64,000 nucleotides of DNA from Hydnum rufescens UP504 (taxonomy: Eukaryota; Basidiomycota; Agaricomycetes; Cantharellales; Hydnaceae). The notes below the pieces were generated by a model. The model did no database searches. It was not told the origin of the DNA and was given only the letters and a program-made list of their open reading frames with translations. A program made the translations under genes and the position numbers. Below, piece after piece: positions 6,414 through 64,000 of the stretch. Numbering within the stretch: position 1 is the stretch's first letter; the number at the start of each line of letters is the position of its first letter. The stretch spans positions 200,243 through 264,242 of the forward strand of contig MU128963.1 in assembly GCA_014904985.1 (NCBI GenBank). Reading direction: 5' to 3'.

Positions 6414-7800
6414 ATGAGCTATGTGCCCCCTTCTATGCACATCTTCCCGTTTCCGAAAATTCCAGCTCGCAAAATGAGAGACATGCCGGGTGCTGGCCGT
6501 GCAGATACAGACAAAAATTGTGTAAAGCGGGCGCAAGTGGCCCCCAGGGATCATGCAAGGATTGCACCGCTTTTAAAATTGTCTGCGATGGTAAAGGGCT
6601 GAGGAGGCCACCCGGTGTACGTTGTCTCGGAATCTCCCTGTCCCTTAGCCTAATTGGAGACGCGTATTAGGGTCGAGCCCTGGCGGACCAGGTCCGAGCT
6701 GATGCGAAGGCTTGGATACAGAAACGTGACAAGCACGAGCCATCCATTCAGCCTCTCTCACTCTCATATGAACTGAGACCCGCTCTACCCTCTCCTCCGT
6801 CGCCAACTCGGTTGACTATCAGGATCGGGATGGTACCCCAATCGCTCCCTCGCTATTCCCAGCGAACGAAGCCGGCTTCCAAGGAGCCGATACTCCTGAT
6901 CAGGCCTCATTCCAGAATGATGCGAATACAACTAGTTCGTGATACATTATCGCTGTGTCCATTGTGCTTAACTGTCTTAACAGGTGTTGTAGATCCTTTG
7001 GAGACGGGGGTCCCATGGAATAACGCCCCATTCGAGCATCACAACCATACTACCCAGTCCCCGCCCGTCACGAATCCCATGTGGGGCGAGAGTACGGATC
7101 TCCCACTTCCCAATGTCCGCATTTGTGTATGGGGACTTACCTCTGGCTCCACACAGCTCCCTTGTCTCCCTCTCCCACGGACTTCTATCGGCGTCGCATA
7201 ACAATGAGTATATGCTCCTCGCTTCGTCCTCAGGATTTCATAATATCCTTGGATGAAGCCAGAGGATATTTCAATGGATTACAATTTGTCACATCTGAGC
7301 AGCTGGTTGTTCACCATGACCCTGACGAGGCAATGGCTTTGAGGGACCCATTGCTAGCTCATCCCTCATCTCATTCCCAGGGGGCCGATCCTAACCCAAT
7401 CAGTTAGTAATTCATGATCACATCCCCCATGGTAGTTAATAGGTGCTGTAGACGTTTTGCATGCGGTGGACCCGTGGGACGTGGCCCAATCCGGGTCCAC
7501 AATCAGACCCAGTACCCGCTCCTCTCGAATGACATATGGAACGAAGGTACCAGTCTCCCCTTTCGCAACCTTCCGTACGCATTTGTATATCTGAATTCAT
7601 CTCCGGCTCTGTAGATCCCTTGTCTCCCTCTTCCACCACCTTCCTTTCGACATCGAACAATGACCACCCGCTCCCCCCTTCGCCCTCCGGAATCTTTAAT
7701 TCCTTGGTTGAACCTGAAGAGTATTCCCATGGATTAGAATTTACCCCACCTGGGCAGCTGGTTCGCCGTGACTTTGACGAGGACGTGACAGGGTGATTGA
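6414..7800 (+). pseudogene. Zn2Cys6 (fungal binuclear zinc cluster) transcription-factor-like gene, damaged
   Basis: A Zn2Cys6 cluster is readable at about 6485-6610: GCWPCRYRQKLCKAG, then GSCKDCTAFKIVC. The spacing matches basidiomycete proteins of the GCWTCR..KKC type, with all six cysteines present. An intron GTACGT...GTATTAG (about 6618-6670) then joins to a frame reading ALADQVRADAKAW. The rest has Ser/Pro-rich segments in different frames, and the region 6977-7420 is repeated as a diverged copy at 7436-7796. No upstream ATG lies in frame with the cluster except 6182, which would overlap ATE1's last exon; the N-terminus is therefore unresolved. The 3' end dissolves into an 18-bp minisatellite. 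The zinc cluster call is good; that the gene is broken is inferred from stops and frame changes. Confidence 0.6.
6977..7796 (+). repeat. diverged tandem duplication inside the Zn2Cys6 gene (two copies of about 400 bp)
   Basis: Copy 1 is about 6977-7420 and copy 2 about 7436-7796. Matching landmarks, in order: GGTGTTGTAGAT / GGTGCTGTAGAC; CCCAGTCCCC / CCCAGTACCC; CGCATTTGTGTAT / CGCATTTGTATAT; CTCCCTTGTCTCCCTCT / ATCCCTTGTCTCCCTCT; CAGCTGGTTGTTCACC / CAGCTGGTTCGCCGTG. Several point and frame differences separate the copies, so the duplication is not recent. Confidence 0.7.
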
Positions 7801-7998
7801 CGAAGGACGTGACTTGACGAAGGACGTGACTTTGACGAAGGATGTGACTTTGACGAAGGATGTGACTTTGACGAAGGACGTGACTTTGACGAAGGATGTG
7901 ACTTTGACGAAGGACGTGACTTTGACGAACGTGATTGACGAAGATGTGATTTAACGAGACGTGACTTGACGAAGGAGTGATTGCGAGACGTGATTTCC
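7767..7998. repeat. 18-bp minisatellite, unit GACTTTGACGAAGGAYGT
   Basis: There are about twelve head-to-tail copies of an 18-bp unit. The middle ones are near identical (alternating GGACGT and GGATGT) and the outer ones are decayed and shortened (for example GATTGACGAAGATGT). The seed occurs in the last coding piece of the duplicated Zn2Cys6 region, where it encodes DFDEDV. Confidence 0.9.
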
Positions 7999-26754: not shown

Positions 26755-29700
26755 CTAATTAAAGGGGTCCAGTGGAACAGCAAGAATTATGACATGGCCA
26801 CCTGTACACCCAACGGCAATCCGAGGGTGGGTTTGATGACTGGACATGATGATCTTGGTGGAGGGGGTATAATGGGTTGGAATATAACACACACGTCGGG
26901 TGTACCCATCTTTTCTCCGCACCACTTCTATCCACTGGTCATGAGGGGTCCAGGTCCAGATGAGTGGTGTCAAGGTCACAGAAGGTGTAGGGGTCATTAA
27001 GGATGAGATGGAAGTTAGGCGAGAGGGTGGTTGGGAAGTCAAATTCCAAGCCATCATCTCCATCCCTGCATGAGTGATCAAAGTATGACCATCCAAGGAA
27101 AATTTGACAGCAGTGATCAAACCAGAGTGGCCTTCCAATTTGGCAAGAGATGCACCAGATACAGCATCCCATAATTGAACAGTATCATCATCAGACCCTG
27201 ATGCCAGGGACAATCCATCAGGTGAAAATGAAATAGTCCTAATCCAATCAGAATGGCCTTCCAGCTTTGCAATGGATGCACCAGACAAGGCATCCCACAA
27301 TCTTAGAGTATGATCATCAGAGCCTGATGCCAGTAAAGATCCATCAGGGGAAAATGCAATGGTCCTAACCCAATTGGAATGGCTTTCCAGTTTTCCAATG
27401 GATGTATCAGCTGTGGTGTCCCACAGTCGCAGAGTATGATCATTGGAACCTGATGCCAGGCGCAATCCATCAGGTGAAAATGCAATGGCACTGACCCAAC
27501 CAGAATGGCCTTCCAGTTTTGCAATGAGCACACCAGATGTGGGATTCCACAATCGCACAGTATGATCATCAGAGCCTGAGGCCAGGATCAGTCCATTGGG
27601 TGAAAATGCAACAGTGCCAACTGAACCAGAATGGCCTTCCAGCTTTGCCATGGGTGCACCAGATATAGCATTCCACAATCGCAGAGTGCGATCATCAGAG
27701 CCTGATGCCAGGTGCTGTCCATTGGGGGAAAATGCAACTGTCCTCACAGAACGAGAATGACCTTCCAGTTTTGCAATAAATGTGTGAGATATGGCATCCC
27801 ACAATTGGAGAGTGTAATCATTGGAGCCTGATGCCAGGTGAAATCCATCAGGTGAAAATGCAACAGTCCTAACCCAACCAGAATGGCTGTCCAGTTCTGC
27901 AATGCATGCACCAGACACCACATTCCATAAATGTATACTGCCATTGGAGGAGCCTGATGCTAGGCACAATCCATCAGGGGAAAATGCAATGGTGGTAACC
28001 CAATGAGAATGGCCTTTCAGTTCTGTCTTGGGCACACCAGATTTGACATCCCATAATTGTAGAGTATGATCAGAAGAGCCTGAGGCCAGTTGTGATCCAT
28101 GTGGTGAAAATGCAATGGTTGTAACCCAACCAGAATGGCCTTTCAGTTTTGCCATGGGTGCACCAGATGTGGCATCCCACAACCGCACTGTATGATCATC
28201 ACTGCCAGATGCCAGGTGCAATCCATCAGGTGAAAATGCAACAGTGTTGACCCAACCAGAATGGCCTTCCAGTTTTGCAATGGACACCCCAGATATAGCA
28301 TCCCACAATCGGACAGTGTGATCATCAGATCCAGATGCAAGGCAGGATCCATCAGGTGAAAATGCCACAGTGTTAACCCAGCCAGAATGGCCCCCTAAGG
28401 TACTCAGGTTCTGTGGCCATTCAGGCTCCATCCCCTGTAGCACCCTGACACAATCCTCTCCATGTTTACAATACACTTGGTACAGTGCAGTGTTCCGTGG
28501 GGTGAAAGGGAATGCAGAATGATATACATGCAGTGCACTCCCTCTTATCACTTCCCCATGTGCAAGAATGAATCGATGTGAATCAAAGAGGATTCTTACA
28601 GCCGTTGACTTGCATTTTGAACTTTTCTGGCATCAGAATGATTGACCAATCAGCCACTCCATCGGCAATGAAATAAGATATACACATACCGCCCAGCAGT
28701 ATGCCTCCTGAATCGATCTTACGGCAGTAGATACTCCCCCAATCAAGCTCAATGCTTCCAGCCACCATAAAATTGAGCACATCGAGAATGACTCCAGTTT
28801 CTCCACCATTCTCTTCTCCCCAATCTTCACACACGATAGATGTGACACCCAGTACCGGCAGGCATACTGAACCTCCGGTGACAGTGCCTCTCTCACTTTC
28901 TCTTCCAATCCATCTACTTCTGCGTTGAGTAGTGACGGATCCGAGATCCCAGCTACGTCCCGCTTTAGATGCATCGCCATGAGGTCGAAGCATCGGATAG
29001 CATGTCGCAGTTCCTGCTCTGGCACGGCAACAATGACGAACTCTGGCATAGAACATCGCCTAGCGTCGGTAATAAATTCAAGAAACGAAGGGTGGTAGAT
29101 TCGAGGCGCCTCGTGGATATTAGAAGGGGTGACAATAACAGAGTGAAGATGACTTAAGCTAGCCTCAACGACGTGTATTTCGTACTGAGCGAATTCAGCC
29201 AACGAATGCAGTGGGAGAGGCTCGCGCAATAGTACGATGCTCCCAACGATGACTTGAAACCTCTCCTGAATTGCCCGGTCATTGTATGGGGAAAGGGAGT
29301 TGCGGAGCACCTCCGTGTAGAGATCGTCCAGCTGCGAATAGGGTGTCGCACCGGCTTCCCGGAGGGACTGACTATCAAGTATAAGCTTCAGTTGTCTGCG
29401 GGGATCTCGCATGCGATTGTCCCCGATGAAGCGGATTGCTGTAGCTGCCGAAATGAATAGCTTTCCAGATTTCTCTATGAGAGTCCATTTCATCCCCCGT
29501 CGCCCAATCCGCAGGCATCGTGAGACGAAGTTTCCCCGGAATTTTCGCCAATTCGGTGGAGATGTAAAGCCGGATGTCTTGCTCAACGACTGATGCTTCG
29601 ATATCATGGAGAACAGTCTTGGCCAGGTTGGGGACTTCGTTGAAGATAGAGGATAAGTGAGGTTGTGGACGGCTCGTGATCAAGATCCGTAGGAAAGGGA

Positions 29701-38440: not shown

Positions 38441-41400
38441 TTACGAAAGTCCCAGGCATGCTTTCATTGAGGGCCTGCGGAAGAATGTGTAGAGGTGCAG
38501 CAGGAGAGACCAGCTGAGTAGAACCTGTTCCTCAGTGAAGCGCCAATTAAATGGGTCAAGTGGAACCGCGAGAATTAAGACACATCCACCACTACATCCA
38601 ACAGCAATCCGAGGGTGAGTTTGATGGCCCGACACATGGATCTCAGTGGAGAGGGAATAATGTAGAGGGATGTAACATATACGTCTGGTGTTGCTGTCTT
38701 CTTCCCGCTCCACTTGTATCCATCCATCATGAAAAACGTAGAACCAGATGAGTGGTGTCAGGCTTACAAAGGATGTAGAAGTCACTGGGATGAGCCAGAG
38801 AGGTGAGAAGGAGGATGAGAAGTCAAATCCCAAGTCAAGGTCTCAACCCCTGCATGTGAGATCAAAGTATGACCATCCAAGGAATATTCAATGGTGGTAA
38901 CAAAACCAGAATGACCTTTCAGTTTGGCAATGGACATGCCAGATGTGGCATCCCACAATCGTAGAGTGTGATCATTTGAACCTGATGCCAGGTGCAATCC
39001 ATCTGGTGAAAATGCAATGGTAGTAATGGAGTGAGAATGGCCTTCCAGTGTTGCAATGGAGGTACCAGATACACCATCCCACAATCGGATAGTATAATCA
39101 TAGGCACCTGATGCTAGTCGCAGTCCATCTGGTGAAAATGCAACAGTTGTAATGGACCTGGAATGGCCTTCCAGTTTTGCAATGGATCTGCCAGATATAG
39201 CATCCCATAATTGTAGAGTGTGATCATCAGAGCCTGATGCCAGGCGTGATCCATCAGGTGAAAATGCAATGGCCCTAACCCAACTAGAGTGGCCTTCCAG
39301 TTTTGCACTGAATGTCCTGGACATGGCATCCCATAATTGTACAGTATAATCAAAGGAGCCTGAGGCCAAGGTGAATCCATCTGGTGAAAATGCAAGACTC
39401 CTGACAAAACCAGAATGGCCTTCTAGTTTTGTGATGGATACACCAGATAGGACATCCCATAATCGTATGGAATGATCATCAGAGCCTGATGCCAGGCACA
39501 GTCCATCAGGTGAGAATGCAAGAGTGTTAACTGAATCAGAATGACCCTCCAGTTTGGTGATGGACATGCCAGATATGCCATCCCACAATCGTAGGGTATG
39601 ATCATTGGAACCTGATGCCAGGTGTTTCCCATCATGTGAAAATGCAATGGCCCTAACCCAACTAGAGTGGCCTTCCAGTTTTGCAACAGACACACCAGAT
39701 ATGGCATCCCACAATTGTACAGTATGATCATGGGAGCCTGATGCCAGGTGCAATCCATTGGGTGAGAAAGCAACAGCCCTAACCACATCAGAATGGCCTT
39801 CCAGTTTTGCAATAGAGGCACCAGACACAGCATCCCACAATCTTAGGTATGATCATCTGAGCCAGATGCCAGGCACAATCCACTGGGTGAAAATGCAACA
39901 CTCCTAACTGAATGAGAGTGACCTTCTAGTTTTGTGATGGACATGCTGGATGTGGCATCCCACAACTGCAGACTATGATCATCAGAGCCTGATGCCAGGT
40001 GCAATCCATCAGGTGAAAATGCTACAGTCATCACCCAACCAAAATGGCCCTCCAGTTTGGCAATGGATGCCCCAGATGTGGTATCCCATAATCGTAGTGT
40101 ATGATCATCAGAGCCTGATGCCAGGCGCAATCCATCAGGTGAAAATGCAACAGTCCTGACCCAGCCAGAATGACCTTCCAGTTTTGCAATGGACACACCA
40201 GATCTGGGATCCCATAATTGTACAGTATGATCATAGGAGCTTGATGCAAGGCACAATCCATCAGGTGAAAAGGCAATGGTGCTAACTGCACCAGAATGGC
40301 CCCACAAAGTACTCAAGTTCTGAGGCCATTCAGGCTCTATGCCTTGGAGCACCCTGATGCAATCCTTTCCATCTTCACAATATGCTTGGGACAGTGCAGT
40401 GTTCCCTGGGGTGAAAGGCAATGCAGAATGATATACATGCAGTGCACTCCCTCTTATCACTTCCCCATGTGCAAGAATGAATCGATGTGAATCAGAGAGG
40501 ATTGTTGCAACAATTGCCTTGCATTTCGAACTTTTCTGTGACCGGAATCACTGGGCAATTAGCCACAACACCGATGATCAAATAAGAAAAGTACACATAC
40601 CGCCCAGCGGTGTGCATCCTGAATCGAACTTAGAGCACGAGGGACTTCCCCAATCAGGCTCAATGCTTCCAACCACCATAAAATCGACCGCATCGTGAAC
40701 CACTCCAATGCCTCCATCATTCTCTTCTCCCCGAACTGCACACGCGATAGATGTGACGTCCAGTACCGACATGCGTACTGAACCTCCGGTGACAGTGCCT
40801 CTCTCACTTTTTCCTCAAATCCATCTACTTCCTCATTGAGCAGCGATGGATCCGAGATTCCAGCTACGTCCCGCTTTAAATGTCGCGCCATGAGTTCGAA
40901 GCATCGGATAGCATGCCGCAGTTCTTGTTCTGGGCATAGGAACGATCACGAACTCCTGCATAGAACATCGCGAGGCATCCGTGATGAACTCGATAAATGA
41001 GGGGTGGTAGACCCGAGGAGCCTCGTGAATATCGGAAGGGGGGACGATGACTGAGTGAAGATGACGTAAAGCTAGGCTTCGACAACTGCGTATTTCGTAT
41101 AGAACGAAGTCTAGCCAGCGAATGCAACGGGAGCGGCTCGCGCAACAGCACGATGCTCCCGATGACGATTTGAAACCGCTTGCAGAATTTCTCGATCGTT
41201 ATATACGGAAAGGGAATTGCGGAGCTACCCCCATGTAGAGCTCGTCCAGCTGCGAATATGGCTTGCACTCCGGCTGTTCGGAGGTGACTCGGCTATCAAG
41301 TATACGCATTCAGGTGTCCATCGAGGATTTCGCACACGATACGTCCCCGATGAAAGCGGATGTGCTGTAGCTGCATAAACGAATAGCCTCCAGACTTCTC

Positions 41401-45132: not shown

Positions 45133-48100
45133 CTAGCAGAATGCACCCTTAAGGCTTCGCAAGACCTTGCGGAAGTCCCAGGTGCGCTTTCCACTGAGGC
45201 CATCGTGACTTTTGAGAGATGGGTGTGGAAGGGCTGCAGTGGGCACTGGCCGGGCATAAACCTCTTCCTTGCTGAAATGCCAATTAAATGGGTCAAGTGG
45301 AATGGCAAGAATTATCACGTCACCACTTGTACATCCCATGGCAACTCGAGGCTGGGTTTGATGACTTGAAGCAAGGATGTCAGTGGAGGGGTGTAGTGTG
45401 ATGGTATGTAGCATAGACGTCTGGTATTGCTGTCTTCTTGGCATTCCACATTGATGCAGTGACCATGAAGGGACCACAGAAGTGGTGTTGAGGTCACAAT
45501 GGGCCCTTGGGTTGCAAAGGATGGGCCAGAGGGAAGGCAAGAGGGAGGTTGTGAAGCTAAATCCCAAGCAAAAGTCACTCCCCCTGCATGGGAGATCAAA
45601 GTTTGACCATCCAAGGAATATTCAACAGTGGTAACAGGATGAGAATGGCCTTCCAGTTTTCTGATGAGTGCACCAGATATGGCATCCCACAAGCATACAG
45701 TATGATCATTGGAGCCTGATGCCAGGTGCAATCCATCAGGGGAAAATGCAATGGTGGTAACCAAACCAGAATGAGCTTCCAGTTTTGCAATGGATGTACC
45801 AGCTTTGGCATCCCACAGCCGTACAGTGTCATCATCAGAGCCTGATGCCAGGCATCCATTGGGTGAAAATGCAATGGTCCTAACTGAACCAGAATGGCCT
45901 TGCAGTTTTGCAATTGACACACCAGATATGGCATCCCATAATCGTAGAGTACAATCAGAGGAGCCTGATGCCACATGCAATCCATTGGGCAAAAATGCAA
46001 TGGTCCTGACAGAATCAGAATGACCTTCCAGTTTTGCAATGCATGCTCCAGATATGGCATTCCACAACCGGAGGGTGTGATCATAGGAGCCTGATGCCAA
46101 ACATGATCCATTGGGTGAAAATGCAACAATGCTAACCCAATTAGAATGGCCTTCCAGTTTGGCAACAGACAAACCAGATATGGCATCCCACAATTGCACA
46201 GTATGATCATTGGACCCTGATGCCAGGTGCAATCCATCATGTGAAAATGCAATGGTGCTAACCCAACCAGAGTGGCCTTCTAGTTTTGCAATGGAAGCAC
46301 CAGATACACCATGCCATAATCGTACAGTATAATCAGAGGAGCCAGATACCAAGCACAACCCATCAGGTGAATATGCAATGGTCCTGACCCAACCAGAATG
46401 GCCTTCCAGTTTTGCAATGGACATCCCAGACATGGCATCCCATAATCGTACAGTATCATCAGAGGAGCCTGAAGCCAGGTGTAGGCCATCAGGTGAAAAT
46501 ACAATGGTGCTAACCCACCCAGAATGGCCCTGCAAAGTACTCAAGTTCTGTGGCCATTCAGACTCCATGCCTTGGAGCACCCTGATGGAATCTGTTCCAT
46601 GTTCACAATACACTTGGTACAGTGCAGTGTTCAGTGGGGTGAAAGGCAATGCAGAATGATACACCTGTAGTGCACTTGCTCTTATCACTTCCCCATGTGC
46701 AAGAATGAATCGATGTGAATCAGAAAGGATTGCCACAATGGTTGAATTGCATTTTGAACTTTTCTGTCATCAGAATCATTGGTCAATCAGCCACTCCACC
46801 CATAATACAAATAAGAAATACACATACTGCCCAGTCATGTGCCCCCTGAATTGAGCTTACAGCACTAGAAATACCCCCAATCAGACTCAATGCTTCCAAC
46901 CACCATAAAATTGACCCCATAGAGAATGACTCCAGTGCCTCCATCATTCTCTTCTCCCCAAACTTCACGTATGATAGATGTGACACCCAGTACCGGCATG
47001 CATACTGAACCTCCGGTGACAATGCCCCTCTCACTTTTTCCTCAAATCCATCAACTTCCCAGTTGTAGAGTGATGGATCCGAGATACCAGCTACGTCCCG
47101 CTTTAGATGCGTTGCCATCAGTTCGATGCATCGGATGGCGTGCCGCAGTTCCTGTTCCGGTAGAGGAACAATAACGAACTCTGGCATAGAACATCGCAAG
47201 GCGTCCGTGATAAACTCGATAAATGAAGGGTGGTAGATGCGAGGCGCCTCGTGAATATCGGAAGGGGGGACGATGACTGAGTGAAGATGACTTAAGCTAG
47301 CCTCAACGGCGCGTGTTTCGTACTGAACGAACTCTGCCAGCGAATGCAACGGGAGGGGCTCGCGCAACAGCACGATGCTCCCGACCACGATTTGAAACCT
47401 CTTCACAGTTTCTTGATCGTTATACACGGAAAGGGAATTGCGGAGCACCCCCAGGTAAAGCTCGTCCAGCCGCGAATATAGTTTCACTCCGGCCTGTCGG
47501 AGGGACTGGTTATCAAGTATAAGCCTTAGATGTTTCTGAGGGTCTCGCACACGATCGTCCCCAATGAAGCGGATCGCCGTCGCCGCGTAAACGAACAGCT
47601 TCCCGGTCTTCCCTACGAGTGAGTCCATCTCGGTCTCGGTCACCCAATCCGTAGGCATCGCAAGATCAAGATTTCCCGGAATTTTCGCCAATTCAGTGGA
47701 GATGTAAAGCCGGATGTCTTGCTCAACCACGGATGCTTCGATATTGTGAAGAACCACCGTCGCCAAGTTCGAGACTTTGTTGAACACAGAGGATAGGTGA
47801 GGTTGGGGACGGCTCGTAATCAAGATCCGTAGGAAAGGTATTCGGATTAGGTGTGCAAACACAAGTCGCAAAATATCTGCAGCACCCTTTTCCTCGCATT
47901 CGTCGAGGGCGTCAAGGACAATAAGTATTGGGCGCCGCTGGGGATTGATATTGAGAAGCGGCTTCAAGATTAATTCCTGAAGCTGAGACGACAGGTCCTT
48001 TCGCCCGACCGTCGGATCTTGTCTCAGGGCTTTCACGATGACCTCCTGAAACGCAATTTCTGAGTGCGCGAGTTGGAAGGCGAGTGTGGGTAGCACGAGT

Positions 48101-48620
48101 CCTGGATCCCGTAAACGTTCATCGCTCCGAGAAAAGAAGAAACTGGCACCCAGCATGGCATTCTCTTGCGCTTGTTCTGCGACGGTTTTCGCGATAGTCG
48201 ATTTACCGATGCCAGCGAGCCCACTGAGCCAGCATACAGGTGGTCTTTCGCCATTCCCACTCTCTGACCACGATAGAATATCCTTCAATGTATCGACACG
48301 AGTGCCCTCCAGACATGAGGATAGTGCATCCCTGCGGAGAGAGTTATGGGACGCATATAGTGCGCGAGGAAGATCCCTTAAAAGGGAGGCATCAGAAGAC
48401 CTCGGGCTCCCTGACAGAACATTGGTTATGGATAAGTACTGTAAATACCTAAGGCAGGAGTATTACCGTAATAGATATGGACATCCCCTGCACGACCACC
48501 AGTACCACCGCCTACGCCATCACCCCCACGACCAATAACTGAGGGAAAACAGGTATGAGTTGGGGACCAGAAGGAAAGATTGAACGGGAACTCGCTTATA
48601 TTAGAGCCAGGATTTTGCAT
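45133..48620 (-). CDS. NACHT-WD40 NLR-like protein 3 (most intact copy)
   Basis: The start ATG at 48620-48618 gives MQNPGSNISEFPFNLSFW and then GRGGDGVGGGTGGRAGDVHI. A 501-residue open NACHT frame (48,288-46,783) contains LAGIGKSTIAKTVAEQ (about 48,180-48,235), ILIVLDALDECEE (about 47,885-47,925) and RILITSRPQPHLSS. An intron GTATGT...GACAG (46,827-46,764) joins it to a 473-residue WD40 frame. That frame has eight repeats, seven regular and one degenerate. The sixth repeat lacks one codon (FSPNGCLASG). A one-base shift near 45,385 separates the WD40 frame from its conserved tail (SSHQTQPRVAMGCTSGDV, DPFNWHFSKEE), which ends at 45,133. The join between the glycine-rich segment and LSGSPRSSDAS is unresolved; a short intron ending GGTATTTACAG is possible. 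Likely role: cytosolic recognition protein. Confidence 0.93.
45600..46535 (-). repeat. WD40 repeat array of NLR3, 8 units
   Basis: Seven regular 42-residue repeats (one of 41) and one degenerate blade. The array is shorter than in NLR1 (11) and NLR2 (12), although the flanking NACHT and tail are clearly orthologous. Confidence 0.92.
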
Positions 48621-58995: not shown

Positions 58996-60895
58996 CCCCC
59001 CCCAGGGTCTGCCACCACAGGGGGGGCACGGTTCCTGGTGGTCATGCACCTGCATATACCCACCACACCCACCACAGTGGGTGGGGTTCATTTGCCCTGG
59101 TCGGGGCCAGTTCCATTTGGGTGCTCCCTCAAGGGAGCAGGTTTTCATTCACAGGGGCTCGTTTGCAGTTTTTGTTCCCAGCATGTCATTTGGCAGGTTC
59201 AGAGGGGGTTCATGTGGATTCTGGTCAAGGATCTATAGAAATAAGGAATTCAATGTTAGTACAACATTAATGCAATGCAAAAAGAGCAGCTTATGCTGCT
59301 CTTTTTGCACCACAAGACTAAGAAATAAGAAAAACATAACACATACCTTGTACCCCACACCTGCAGGTGTAGGGTACTGGGCCATGCATGCTGGCTTGTC
59401 CATACACCAGTGTGTACATATGCTGGCTCATATGCACAGCAGTTCATATGGGTCCCCTGTCGTTCAGGGGTTGATAGGTGGGGTTATGGGGGTTCTTTGT
59501 CGGTATTCATTTGCAAGGGCAGTTGAAACCTACAAAATATTATTTTTAAATTAGTTAGGAAATAAGGGCCATGCAAAAAGAGCAGCTTTCACTGCTCTTT
59601 TTGCTTGGCTGTAGCTAGTGAGGGGGGTGGGTATTCCTCCTCTCCTACTGAACAAAATCCCTTGGGGAAGGGTGGAACTGGTTGCCCTAGATGTACCCTC
59701 CATCGGATATAGGGTGCCGGAACCATAATTGCCTTTAGTAATCAGAAAAAGTGGAGGTAAAAGTGAAATGAGACATGGGGAGACTAAATTACAGAAAGCC
59801 AAGTTCTCATCCGTTCGTTTTGCCCTTGGTACCATTCGATGTGGATTTTTAGCGTCTTTCCAGAAGTGGTTGTTTCTAACGAGTCGGATCAAAACTGGGA
59901 GAGATATTTGCGAAATACTGAAGGGTAGTGTGGAGCATGAGGTAAAATCGACCTGGAGGATGCAGTTCGCATTTTATAAACGCGTGTGTGGTACCGTTAG
60001 ATAGGTATTGATTGTAGCTTTCTGGGCGCTGTTTTTTCGAGTCGATCTGATCAAAATTGGTGGAGATATTTGCGAAATACTCCTTGAGAGTATTGGAATA
60101 GCCCCTATTTAACATGTGACAAGTCTGCAAGTCAAAGTGGGAGTCATGTTACATAATCCAAGGTCAAGTACCACCCTTGAGGCATTTGGATACACCAATA
60201 GTGATACAATAGGTGGATGAAAGTAAGCAAGTTGAATTGCTGTAGCCTGGTTGAACTGGCTTGGAAATAAGTACAATTTGGATGGCCTGTTGAAGTGCCA
60301 AGGATGGACAAGTATTTGTCTTGTATATAGGGTGGAGGAAAAGTAAAAAGGACCATGGATCCTGGGATGTGAATCCATGCTATTTGATGGCCAGAGGAAT
60401 AACAAGTGTGGATACAAGAGAAATGTAGAAATATGGATTTGTTTGAGGAGGTAGTTGGGCCCAGATGAGGTATGTATGTAATGGGATTTTATCCCTCCAA
60501 CACTGTGGCAGGTGTGTGATTCCAGGCCCTTATTTGGCATGGCACCATATGTCATGTTGTTGGCACATTGCTGTGTTGTGTTGCTGTGTCATGTTGCCAT
60601 GTACCATGTTGTTTGTCATTTTGCAGGTTATTGTTGTGCATTGGGTGGGCCCCAATCTAGAATAAAGCATGTCAGTAGAAAAAAATAAACCTTACCTTGT
60701 AGTACCCCACACCCACTGCTGCAGGTGTGGGGTACTGGGGCCATACTCTGGCTCATGGGTGCAGCAGTTCATACAGGGCCCATTGTTCAGGTGTCAATGG
60801 GTGGGGTTACAGGGGTTCTCGTGTGGGTATTTGTTCGTGCGGGAACCAATGACCTAGAATATAAGATTGTATGTTAGTTAAGAGTTAAAGACCAT
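58996..60895 (-). repeat. hairpin-intron array, minus-oriented arm (interrupted)
   Basis: Units here read on the minus strand. One exon-like piece lies at 59,355-59,530; it ends in a stem (CACCTGCAGGTGTGGGG) and is followed by a GTATGT donor. The hairpin is at 59,277-59,308, then GTACTAAC and acceptor TTTCTATAG. A second hairpin is at 59,573-59,604, followed on the minus strand by TTCCTAACTAATTT and TTTTGTAG. Another exon-like piece lies at 60,705-60,852, with a 44-nt intron GTAAGG...TTCTAG (60,705-60,662) that lacks a hairpin. Both hairpins have GCAAAAAGAGCAG arms. Confidence 0.7.
59605..60560. other. unrelated insert inside the array
   Basis: The sequence between the two minus-oriented parts shows no unit structure. 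A 35-bp string, GATCAAAAYTGG...GAGATATTTGCGAAATACT, occurs twice (59,887-59,922 and 60,050-60,085). CpG content rises again at about 59,700-60,060. No gene is recognised. Confidence 0.4.
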
Positions 60896-63090
60896 GCAAA
60901 AAGAGCAGCTTAGCTGCTCTTTTGGCATTGCTTGAATTTTTTTCTACTAACATCTTCATTATTCTAGCACCATTCTCCCTTGGCAAAACCCCACCCAGGA
61001 ATGCACCGACAGGTCCCAGGGCAAAATACAGGAGCATGCGCAGCCACTCAAGATGCCAATGGTCAACCATCCACAACATACAATGAATGAAACACAGTGC
61101 CACACACCCACTTTGGCAGGTGTGTGGCAATATTAGGTGAGTTTTTTCCTTATGGGGTGTACCACAATGCCAAAAGAGCAGCACCAGCTGCTCTTTTGGC
61201 ATTGTCTTTGGTTTTTTTTTCTTACTAACCTCTTATTATTCTAGGTACCTCCACCAGATGAAGTTCAAGATGAATGTGTGCAGCCACCCAATCCAAGAAC
61301 CCAGCACCCCAACACCTGCAATCTATGCAATGATGGATGAAATGTGGTACCACACACCCACTGTGGTGGGTGTGTGGTAATACTGGGTAAGTTCTCAATT
61401 ATATGATGTACGACAGCACCAAAAGAGCAGCAGAAGCTGCTCTTTTGGTGCTGCTTGTGTTTTTTTTCCTGTTACTAATGTGTTTGTTATAGGTCCTTTC
61501 TCCCACTATGAAACCCCATCCGAAGCAAGCACAGATGAAGCCCAGGGTGAAAACCGAGCATGTGCAGCCACCCAAAGGCTCCACCCCCAAGCACTTGTAA
61601 TGTACATGACAGCTTAAATATGGCACCACACCTGTTGTGGCAGGTGTAGTAAAATCCAGTAAGTGATGTGTACAATGGCACCAAAAGAGTTGCAGCAGCA
61701 GCTCTTTTGGTGCCACCTGCATCTCTTTTTTTTTCTTTACTAATCTATTCACTACCCTAGGTGCCTTTTCCCATTGTGAAACCCCACCCAAGGCAGCAGA
61801 GATGAAGGCCAGGGCAAAACACAGACATACACAGGCACCCGAAAGCCCAGCCCCCAAACACCCATGATGACCACCATGATGAATTAAATACGATACCACA
61901 CACCTGCTGCAGCAGGTGTGTAGGTGAGTTTTCCATTACTACAACACCAAAAGAGCAGCACCAGCTGCTCTTTTGGTGTTGCTTGGATTCTTTCTTTTTA
62001 TTAACATGTTTATTATTCTAGGTTCTTTCTTCCATCACAAAACCCAACAAGGCCCAGAGTGAAATATGGGCACCCGTGCAGCCACCCAAGACCCTGACCC
62101 TCAAGTATCCACAGCTCACACAATGACCAATTGAATATGGTGCCACACACCCGCTTCAGCAGGTGTGTAGTAGTATCAGGTACATCTAATCCCACTGTTG
62201 CCAAAAGAGCAGCAAAAGCTGCTCTTTTGGCACCCCTCTGTTTTCTTTTTTTTACTGATGTATTATTCTTCGTTATTCTAGGTGCCTTCCCTATGCAAAA
62301 ACCCACTCAATGAGGACATGGACAAGCCCCCAGCACAAAACCTGATGTGCAGCCACCCAAGCCCTGAGTACCTGGCCCCCGAACACAACAATTGACGAAA
62401 TCTCATACCACACCTGCTGCGGCAGGTGACCTTGTAAGTTTCTCATTATAAGATGTGCAACCACGCCAGAAGAGCAGCAGTTGCTGCTCTTCTGGCACTG
62501 CTTCTGTTTTTTTATTCACTAACATATTATTGGTCATTGTAGATCACCCCCCTGCACAAAGACCAGCCCAACAAGAGCACGAAAACCCCCACATGAGATG
62601 CAGATGCATAGCTGCTGAAGGCCACAACTGACGTGACAATGGGCAAAGCACAGTACCACACCTGCTGCAGTGGGTGTGGTAGTACATGGTAAGTTTTTAA
62701 TTACAGTGCATACAATGGCACCAAAGAGCAGCAGAAGCTGCTCTTTTGGCACTGCCTCTGGCTTTTTTTGTTTGACACACTATTTGTTATTCTAGACTCT
62801 CCCCACACAAAAACCCGTCTGATGAGAACATGGAGAGGCCCTCAAACTGAAATATGAACACACAGCCACCAGAGACACACACAAGGGCCCCACCCCCAAA
62901 TGCCCACAATGTGTGCAACATTGGATGAAAGATGGCATCACACCACACACCTGCTCTGGCAGGTGTGTGGTAATATCTTGTAAGTTTTCAATCATAGTAC
63001 ATATACCAGCACCAAAAGAGCAGCTTCTGCTGCTCTTTTGGTGCTGCCTCTGGTCTTTTTTTTACTAACCCACTATTCATTATTCTAGAC
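60896..63090 (+). repeat. tandem array of about 260-bp exon/intron-like units, each with an intronic hairpin
   Basis: There are eight plus-oriented units plus a junction half-unit. Each has an exon-like part of about 145 bp (GTNCCTTCCCC...CAGCCACCCAA...ATGG). It ends in a stem such as CACACACCTGCTGCAGCAGG and then a donor (GTGAGT, GTAAGT or GTACAT). Next comes the hairpin, a T-rich tract with a TACTAAC-like branch site, and acceptor TTCTAG. Hairpins lie at 60,896-60,926, 61,169-61,200, 61,417-61,450, 61,677-61,714, 61,943-61,980, 62,199-62,232, 62,465-62,496, 62,717-62,751 and 63,008-63,045. The core GAGCAGC...GCTGCTC is nearly constant while outer pairs vary in matched fashion. Exon-like parts have no shared open frame on either strand, so they look non-coding. 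A spliced non-coding transcript is possible but unproven. Confidence 0.85.
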
Positions 63091-64000
63091 TGTCCCCACA
63101 CAAAAACCCACCCGGCAAGAACACAAAGAGGCCCTCAAAAATACGAACACACAGCCGCCAAAGACATGGGCAAGGGCCATGAGAATGAAACCTGAAACCC
63201 ACATGAGCACAAAGACCTGTACAAGCCTGGGCTTGTGGACTTGTATGAATACCCACCTGAGCCCCCCCCCAGCCATATGTAGTAGCAATCATAAATAATA
63301 ATAATAATGAGGCCTCCATGTACATTAGTGATGAATAATAAAAGCTTGTGATTATCCTGATAAGCCAGTCCATATAGCCTGCTGACCCATTTAGGGACAT
63401 GCTGGTGTAGAAGAGACCTAATGGGCTTTATTTGTTTTGATCTGTTAAAATGTTATAAGATGTTTGTTTAGAATGTGTTAGATGAGGACAGATCAGTTTT
63501 TGATGGGTTATGCACCACTCAACTGTTGTTTTGTACTAGTTTTGTTGTTGGTTTGACCTTAGGACTTGAACACAAGACTCCAAGATAGATGCTTAGCACA
63601 AGATTTGAACACAGGACCTTCAGATACTCCAAAATGCAGATAGCAAGACACCAAGATTTGAACACAAGACCTTAAGACACTTCCAAGATACTTCAAGACA
63701 CAACTGCAAGACTCAAGATTCAAACACACGACTTCAAGAATGGATGTCTAGCAACTCCTACTCTGAGGGTTCTACAACTATCCACTATTCTTCACATGAC
63801 TAAGCAAGACTGACACACTCTGATTCTCTTATTCCTTTTATACTCTTCTCCTTGTTCAAGATACTATTATTCTCTCTACTAATGGATACTTGGATACTAG
63901 GGTACTTTGATCCTCAGGGCACTTTGATCCTTGGAGGGGACTCCTCTTCAGATGCTCTTCTACACTAAATTCCCCCTCTCTTTATACCTTTCTGAACCTC
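63091..64000. other. end of array and repeat-rich tail, no gene
   Basis: The last exon-like piece fades at about 63,270 into an (AAT)n tract (63,293-63,310). From 63,555 to 63,740 four loose copies of a string like AGATTTGAACACAAGACCTT occur (near 63,561, 63,600, 63,652 and 63,714). The final 200 bp are CT-rich. Nothing coding is seen. Confidence 0.5.

Follow-up and report, generated by a model that had tools for sequence, protein, structure and literature searches.

Tandem hairpin units resembling introns in Hydnum rufescens belong to a truncated copy of a probable non-autonomous transposon and have hairpin arms that change together

A 64,000-nucleotide stretch of the Hydnum rufescens UP504 genome (contig MU128963.1, positions 200,243 to 264,242; hereafter the window) carries close to its right end a run of short repeated units that look like introns with a hairpin inside, which raises the questions of what these units belong to, whether they are real introns and why the two arms of their hairpins change together. 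H. rufescens is counted among the first ectomycorrhizal Cantharellales to be sequenced (PMC7550596). Elsewhere in the window, WD40-type 126-bp repeats lie at 27120-28392, 38904-40301 and 45315-48288, with an adjoining NACHT-domain frame at 46783-48288, as in fungal NLR-like genes; the best named relative of the NACHT protein is from Hydnum rufescens itself (77% identity) and two metagenome proteins match at 80-89%. At 7797-7980 an 18-bp sequence, TTGACGAAGGACGTGACT, is repeated in tandem about 11 times.

Between 61.08 and 63.40 kb, eight units of about 250-290 bp follow one another in tandem on the plus strand (Table 1). In each of them a short hairpin closes a non-coding exon; then come the donor, a further hairpin whose loop has 4 bases, a pyrimidine tract, the branch-like site and the acceptor. 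A sequence-only reading of this DNA had described units at 61.2-63.0 kb with a GT donor, a hairpin, a TACTAAC-like branch site and an AG acceptor, and had called them intron-like. Position and order agree with what we found, with two exceptions: the donor of the 62.2-kb unit is GTACAT, and a good branch site is lacking in the unit at 62.7 kb. The arm sequences that it quoted are also right, but the hairpin that it placed alongside these at 59.3 kb belongs to a unit on the minus strand, in an array of another type. It contained no mention of the second, exonic hairpin, which is present 5' of the donor in all eight window units. Compared with dinucleotide shuffles, three window introns fold with z scores of -5.3 to -7.0 and one window exonic hairpin with a z score of -4.1.

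Table 1. Coordinates of the array features in the window
Feature	Position	Strand	Remarks
Hairpin-intron unit, other array type	59233..59346	-	
Hairpin-intron remnant	59530..59607	-	donor side gone
Independent high-copy repeat, probably solo LTR, within minus-side array	59630..60505		at least 40 copies at >=90% identity
39-nt intron-like stretch without hairpin	60657..60695	-	GTAAGG ... TACTGAC ... TTCTAG
Half intron left of hybrid hairpin	60854..60895	-	branch-like TTAACTAAC, acceptor TTCTAG
Hybrid hairpin	60896..60925		left arm GCAAAAAGAGCAGC, right arm GCTGCTCTTTTGGC; joins minus-strand array to plus-strand array
Truncated long (X) arm	60896..63403	+	eight exon + hairpin-intron units and start of last exon; unit order of L016/L026; right end cut
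Predicted intron 1	61137..61244	+	hairpin 61165-61204, branch 61223
Predicted intron 2	61387..61492	+	hairpin 61414-61453, branch 61473
Predicted intron 3	61659..61760	+	hairpin 61676-61715, branch 61738; donor GTAAGT at 61659 by eye (script: GTAAAA at 61649, 10 bases upstream)
Predicted intron 4	61924..62021	+	hairpin 61942-61981, branch 61999; donor GTGAGT at 61924 by eye (script: 61920, 4 bases off)
Predicted intron 5	62180..62281	+	hairpin 62196-62235, branch 62253; donor by eye (script: none)
Predicted intron 6	62434..62542	+	hairpin 62461-62500, branch 62517
Intron-like unit 7	62689..62795	+	hairpin 62715-62754, left arm one base short
Predicted intron 8	62980..63088	+	hairpin 63007-63046, flipped loop TTCT; branch 63063
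Exonic hairpins 1-4, directly 5' of donors	61103-61124, 61353-61374, 61627-61648, 61899-61920	+	
Exonic hairpins 5-8, directly 5' of donors	62146-62167, 62409-62430, 62657-62678, 62946-62967	+	

Having defined the units in the window, we turned to the genome, as the sequence-only reading had proposed, and a strict pattern for the core hairpin matched 948 sites in the 63.2-Mb assembly of 539 contigs while the same pattern written backwards matched none, so that the hairpin is not a product of chance. Beyond this genome, the core palindrome was found at 22 single sites in bacterial contigs, which are probably unrelated terminators, and at none in viral contigs. In the window and in 16 further regions that we fetched, the units are arranged in arrays; minus-strand units stand to the left of plus-strand units in 11 of the 16, as read from columns of T content, and the remaining five are mixed or one-sided. 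The arrays run outward on opposite strands from a palindromic centre, with non-coding exons of about 157 nt alternating with hairpin introns of about 109 nt (the latter being the median of the 159 of 193 units in which donor and acceptor were both found). That the exons might be coding sequence was ruled out: the 103 internal exons (median 157 nt) have lengths in all three phases, an open frame runs through 45 of them compared with a mean of 42 in base shuffles, and none of 13 spliced runs exceeded the 95% shuffle limit.

The arrays lie within an element with defined ends, a feature that had been overlooked in the sequence-only reading. Its copies begin with CA and finish with TG and carry imperfect terminal inverted repeats, CAGCCCTAGCTGTAGT... 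and ...ACTACAGCTAGTGGTG; the end of the long arm, ...TGATATATCAGCACTACAGCTAGTGGTG, occurs at 15 places with at most 2 mismatches, 14 further places with 3 mismatches represent another type, and the short arm starts with CAGCCCTAGCTGTAGTATAGATATATC. Among seven copies in which both flanks were read, the two ends having been paired by contig position and orientation, four are bordered by exact 7-bp target duplications (TCACAGT, GTATAAT, CAGTTGG and GACTTGT), one by a duplication with a single mismatch (CTGAATG/CTGAACG), and two have none; this agreement of the flanks is the mark of a cut-and-paste transposon. The element is dispersed in the genome and has a palindrome at its centre; the array in the window is one arm of a copy that has been truncated. 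With inverted-repeat ends, 7-bp duplications and no transposase inside, as judged from the exons and spliced runs of elements read in part, it has what is expected of a non-autonomous TIR transposon, and such an element with an unusual interior is what it most likely is.

The palindrome sits between the divergent arrays with a spacer of 0-6 bases, and its arms exceed 100 bp in 13 of 31 loci scanned, nine of these reaching about 300-331 bp. When up to 320 bp of each arm were compared, the two arms of a copy (78.8-99.7% identical) resembled each other more closely, in all 12 loci, than its right arm resembled the right arm of any other copy (54-93%). In one copy, L022, the palindrome extends over 1.56 kb on either side at 93% identity and takes in hairpin units. 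Since identity within a copy exceeds identity between copies, the large arms (0.3-1.6 kb) evolve jointly within a copy. A 5S rRNA gene lies at positions 1031-1146 of L022, beside this most palindromic of the arrays.

The copy in the window has been damaged on both sides. Its unit order recurs in L016 and L026 at 85% identity, and its right end is interrupted at 63399-63405 by another repeat, where other copies run about 400 bp further to the common end. Beyond the cut, a 25-bp motif, GACTTGAACACAAGACTCCAAGATA, is repeated loosely four times at 63563-63741. On the left, the centre is missing, and the 60.9-kb hairpin pairs the left arm of one type with the right arm of another; a TACTAAC-like site and TTCTAG stand on each side of it and read outward on both strands, which indicates that two arrays were fused at this point. 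The array on the minus side is of another type than that on the plus side. On the minus strand, the 39-nt stretch may represent the form that introns of this family take when the hairpin is absent. The stretch from 59.63 to 60.5 kb was ruled out as a part of the element, since it is an independent high-copy repeat (877 candidates at first look, from which the copies counted in Table 1 were scored), and a tRNA-Ser called by ARAGORN at 60711-60807 overlaps an exonic hairpin of the minus array and is probably false.

As to what might move such an element, the KDZ transposase domain gave at least 154 matches in the genome, with the best 150 of 584 candidates scored, and many of the listed frames contain stop codons. 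Among the matches listed, 1 of 68 array clusters lies within 3 kb of a KDZ match (1.0 expected) and 15 of 68 lie within 20 kb (6.5 expected). On these numbers KDZ genes seem unlikely to be the carriers of the arrays: the two are not tightly linked, and the count at 20 kb is roughly double that expected. No transposase with the ends of the array element was found among the KDZ matches and the regions of the genome that were read. Two loci, L084 and L085 (C1:80700-84700 and C13:448700-451760), belong to a different element family with ends similar to those of the array element, CACCACAGGCTGTAGTG..., and L084 contains a piece of an Ulp1-protease-like frame (PF02902, E 2e-6); a third, L093 (C272:22350-24350), has at its left a related end, CAGCCCATGTTGTAGTATAG..., and no hairpin unit occurs in the 2 kb that come next. 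Such units are absent from the 4.0, 3.1 and 2.0 kb read of L084, L085 and L093, respectively.

Among known transposons, the Kyakuja (KDZ) elements of Agaricomycotina are reported as DNA transposons with CA..TG ends and 7-bp target duplications, which lack terminal inverted repeats and carry genes (PMC12730594). The array element shares with them the 5'-CA..TG-3' ends and the 7-bp duplications, and KDZ genes are abundant in this genome; it differs from that description in having imperfect inverted repeats and no coding sequence found in its exons. The hAT7 transposons have 7-bp target duplications as well, and in the same study they are reported from Puccinia and Melampsora with transposases (PMC12730594). 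As to the interior of the element, the introner-like elements of fungi also comprise numerous intron-like sequences that are related to one another and have complete splice signals (PMC4457414); the array element differs in that exon and intron repeat jointly, in non-coding tandem arrays inside a transposon. Introners are recognised by their insertion in many unrelated genes; no such insertion was seen in the regions read, which contained tandem arrays with repeated non-coding exons. Foldback elements have inverted arms built of tandem subunits and are alike in this respect, but the subunits of the array element look like exon plus intron, its two arms may hold different series of units, and its end repeats are short. 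No element of this layout was found in the titles and abstract openings surveyed, a body of literature that leaves out most subscription journals, so that it may already have been described.

We then asked how the splice signals behave between nearest relatives. The branch A showed no substitution at 149 aligned sites, with one gap (each pair being counted both ways). Substitution rates were 1.0-1.5% for AG and 3.0-4.2% for GT, compared with 13.8-21.2% for exons and 4.4-16.6% for other intron sequence, although in the bin of closer relatives the 3.0% of GT is little under the 4.4% of other intron sequence. The remaining positions of the donor and branch motifs were no better conserved than other intron sequence, and the core hairpin changed at 1.0-1.7%, a rate to be read with the fact that the core was itself in the search pattern, with up to 3 substitutions of 20 allowed. 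A loose donor pattern was found in 164 of 193 units in the true orientation versus 115 of 193 reverse-complement controls, by a finder that takes the first match and misplaced the donor in two window units, and 6 or 7 of the 7 bases of TACTAAC were matched in 141 of 193 units versus 37 of 193 controls.

The sequence-only reading had suggested that the hairpin might bring donor and branch site together, and the geometry fits this suggestion. The zipper stems of yeast introns are described as stems between donor and branch site that leave a linker of 42-85 nt, occur in protein-coding genes and are diverse (PMC12350175). In our units, the median distances are 27 nt from the donor start to the stem and 22 nt from the stem to the branch A, which sum to 49 nt; the distance to the donor is at least 10 nt in 157 of 159 scored introns, the distance to the branch at least 20 nt in 114 and the linker 42-85 nt in 129, and all three of these yeast values hold together in 104. 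Stem placement and linker are alike, while here a single hairpin family sits in a non-coding repeat. Taken together, the zipper-stem geometry and the constrained state of GT, AG and the branch A suggest that these are real introns in which the hairpin draws donor and branch site together, and on these sequence features the arrays are presumably transcribed and spliced.

Do the hairpin arms indeed change together, as had been claimed? Across 110 distinct stems from 193 units (6 units of unclear orientation being excluded), the intronic stems gave 151 compensatory cells, as against a mean of 66 and a maximum of 82 in shuffles that keep no relatedness; since the sites share descent, these counts are not independent events and the bulk counts are inflated. 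Pairs other than CpG covary too: C-G/A-T exchanges at one position made 42 compensatory cells versus 18 in shuffles, and A-T/G-C exchanges occur at others. Between 94 pairs of nearest relatives the intronic hairpin showed 31 two-sided changes, 21 of them compensatory, where 5.2 would be expected if the arms changed independently. When the register was slid, at most 1 compensatory change was obtained, and the 17-19 two-sided changes seen at one-base slides arise because CpG sites adjoin. The CpG pair of the intronic hairpin had decayed to matched states in 87 units, to TG/TG in 14 and to CA/CA in 7, with other states in 21 of 193 units, and across the genome 523 decayed-CpG sites were matched (357 + 166) versus 141 unmatched (74 + 67). 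The covariation of the hairpin arms is therefore real, and it bears out the original observation.

The exonic hairpin of each unit permits a comparison. Its stems gave 97 compensatory cells versus a shuffle mean of 53 and maximum of 68, mostly at outer positions, and between nearest relatives it showed 15 compensatory changes versus at most 4 when slid. Its CpG states (48 matched, 21 TG/TG and 21 CA/CA in the 171 of 193 usable units) equal the expectation under independence. Between nearest relatives, however, both sides of the CpG pair had changed in 18 of 78 comparisons for the intronic hairpin versus 19 of 77 for the exonic one, with both members matched in 6 and 5, respectively, so that by this measure the two hairpins hardly differ.

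Matched changes of this kind could be produced by selection on a folded RNA, acting through the zipper stem or some other intron function, whereby single mutations weaken the stem and compensating ones follow, and pressure to keep the fold, in RNA or in DNA, had been suggested in the sequence-only reading. The position of the stem matches that of zipper stems, the 151 compensatory cells versus 66 in shuffles are what selection would yield, and the core hairpin changes far less than the exons, although this core formed part of the pattern searched for. If RNA pairing were under selection, G.U should be better tolerated than A.C, and at the CpG pair neither state was clearly commoner: doubles were 14 TG/TG versus 7 CA/CA (p 0.19), singles 22 of the G.U type versus 28 of the A.C type, and unmatched genome sites, for 100 of the 141 with the loop as strand marker, 51 of the G.U type versus 39 of the A.C type with 10 undecided (p 0.25). 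One-sided changes between relatives comprised 51 G.T, 39 A.C and 39 others. There is an excess of G.T at core positions 7 and 10 (13 versus 2 at each), which may reflect tolerance of G.U and speaks for the fold; the imbalances at outer positions, with G.T prevailing 61 to 4 at -7 and 34 to 8 at -8 and the reverse at -9 (9 to 95) and -10 (14 to 36), look like base composition. Against selection as the main cause, moreover, stand the large arms of the element, which are far longer than an intron fold and change in concert likewise, and the loops, which are flipped in 7 of 102 nearest-relative pairs and so fit inversion between arms. Most of the variable stem pairs are decayed CpGs. Copying between arms, which had been named as an alternative from the start, accommodates the lack of a clear G.U excess and the homogenisation of the large arms within copies. 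Template switching has been described as repairing the stems of RNA genes through multi-base compensatory changes in which a strand is copied from its reverse complement (PMC8794818); what is described there concerns RNA genes, while the present case is a family of repeats in which the sites number hundreds and every unit has another hairpin for comparison. We thus favour arm-to-arm copying in DNA over selection on an RNA fold as the better account of the matched changes, while noting that the evidence is not uniform; folded-RNA selection as the main cause seems to us unlikely, if deserving of some weight, and selection on the fold as a second factor beside copying is possible.

Two further explanations dispense with the zipper stem. 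If the palindromes were DNA binding sites for a dimeric protein, either a transposase or a host factor, in mirror-image arrays like the subterminal repeats of some transposons, the intron signals would be incidental; the near-invariant half-sites of the core, AAAAGAGCAGC/GCTGCTCTTTT, the mirror symmetry of the arrays towards the ends and the lack of a clear G.U preference all accord with such sites, but the constraint on GT, AG and the branch A at the expected spacing does not, nor would binding predict matched change at the variable outer pairs, and we regard it as quite improbable. The hairpins might instead be precursors of small, milRNA-like RNAs freed from spliced introns, as hundreds of near-perfect stems of about 18 bp, mostly with 4-base loops and in intron position, would allow. 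Such a stem, however, is short by the measure of known Dicer substrates, and a search at the Rfam gathering score gave no match in the window and only the 5S rRNA gene in five array loci, so that we give this possibility very little credence.

The reading that we prefer, at a probability of about one half, is that the window contains a truncated non-coding transposon made of spliced hairpin introns, which is moved in trans and whose matched arm changes are mainly the result of DNA copying. A transposase encoded elsewhere, perhaps KDZ/Kyakuja-like or hAT7-like, would mobilise the element; the palindromic centre would act as a two-way promoter, the array transcripts would be spliced, and the hairpin would serve as a zipper stem joining donor and branch site. 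Decay of a CpG would alter one arm, after which one arm would be copied from the other in DNA, by template switching or gene conversion, sometimes flipping a loop, and selection against broken stems may add to this copying. A bolder version, which we put forward only tentatively and think rather unlikely, is that the whole body of the transposon is a two-way, intron-rich non-coding RNA gene whose efficiently spliced zipper-stem introns serve the element, with arm copying maintaining both hairpins and promoter; efficient splicing might, for example, protect the transcripts of the element from spliceosome-coupled RNA silencing. RNAi against transposons is tied in Cryptococcus to spliceosomes that have stalled, and one may speculate that a row of compact, strong introns could allow an element to evade RNAi of this kind.

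If confirmed, this would be a transposon free of protein-coding sequence in which splice sites and hairpins are nevertheless constrained, and it is difficult to see why they should be unless the element benefits from the splicing of a non-coding transcript. With its hundreds of sites, the family would also allow the origin of compensatory changes, selection on RNA pairing or arm copying in DNA, to be tested. Covariation is widely taken as proof of RNA structure, and a large family that covaries without the expected G.U signature would be a useful caution.
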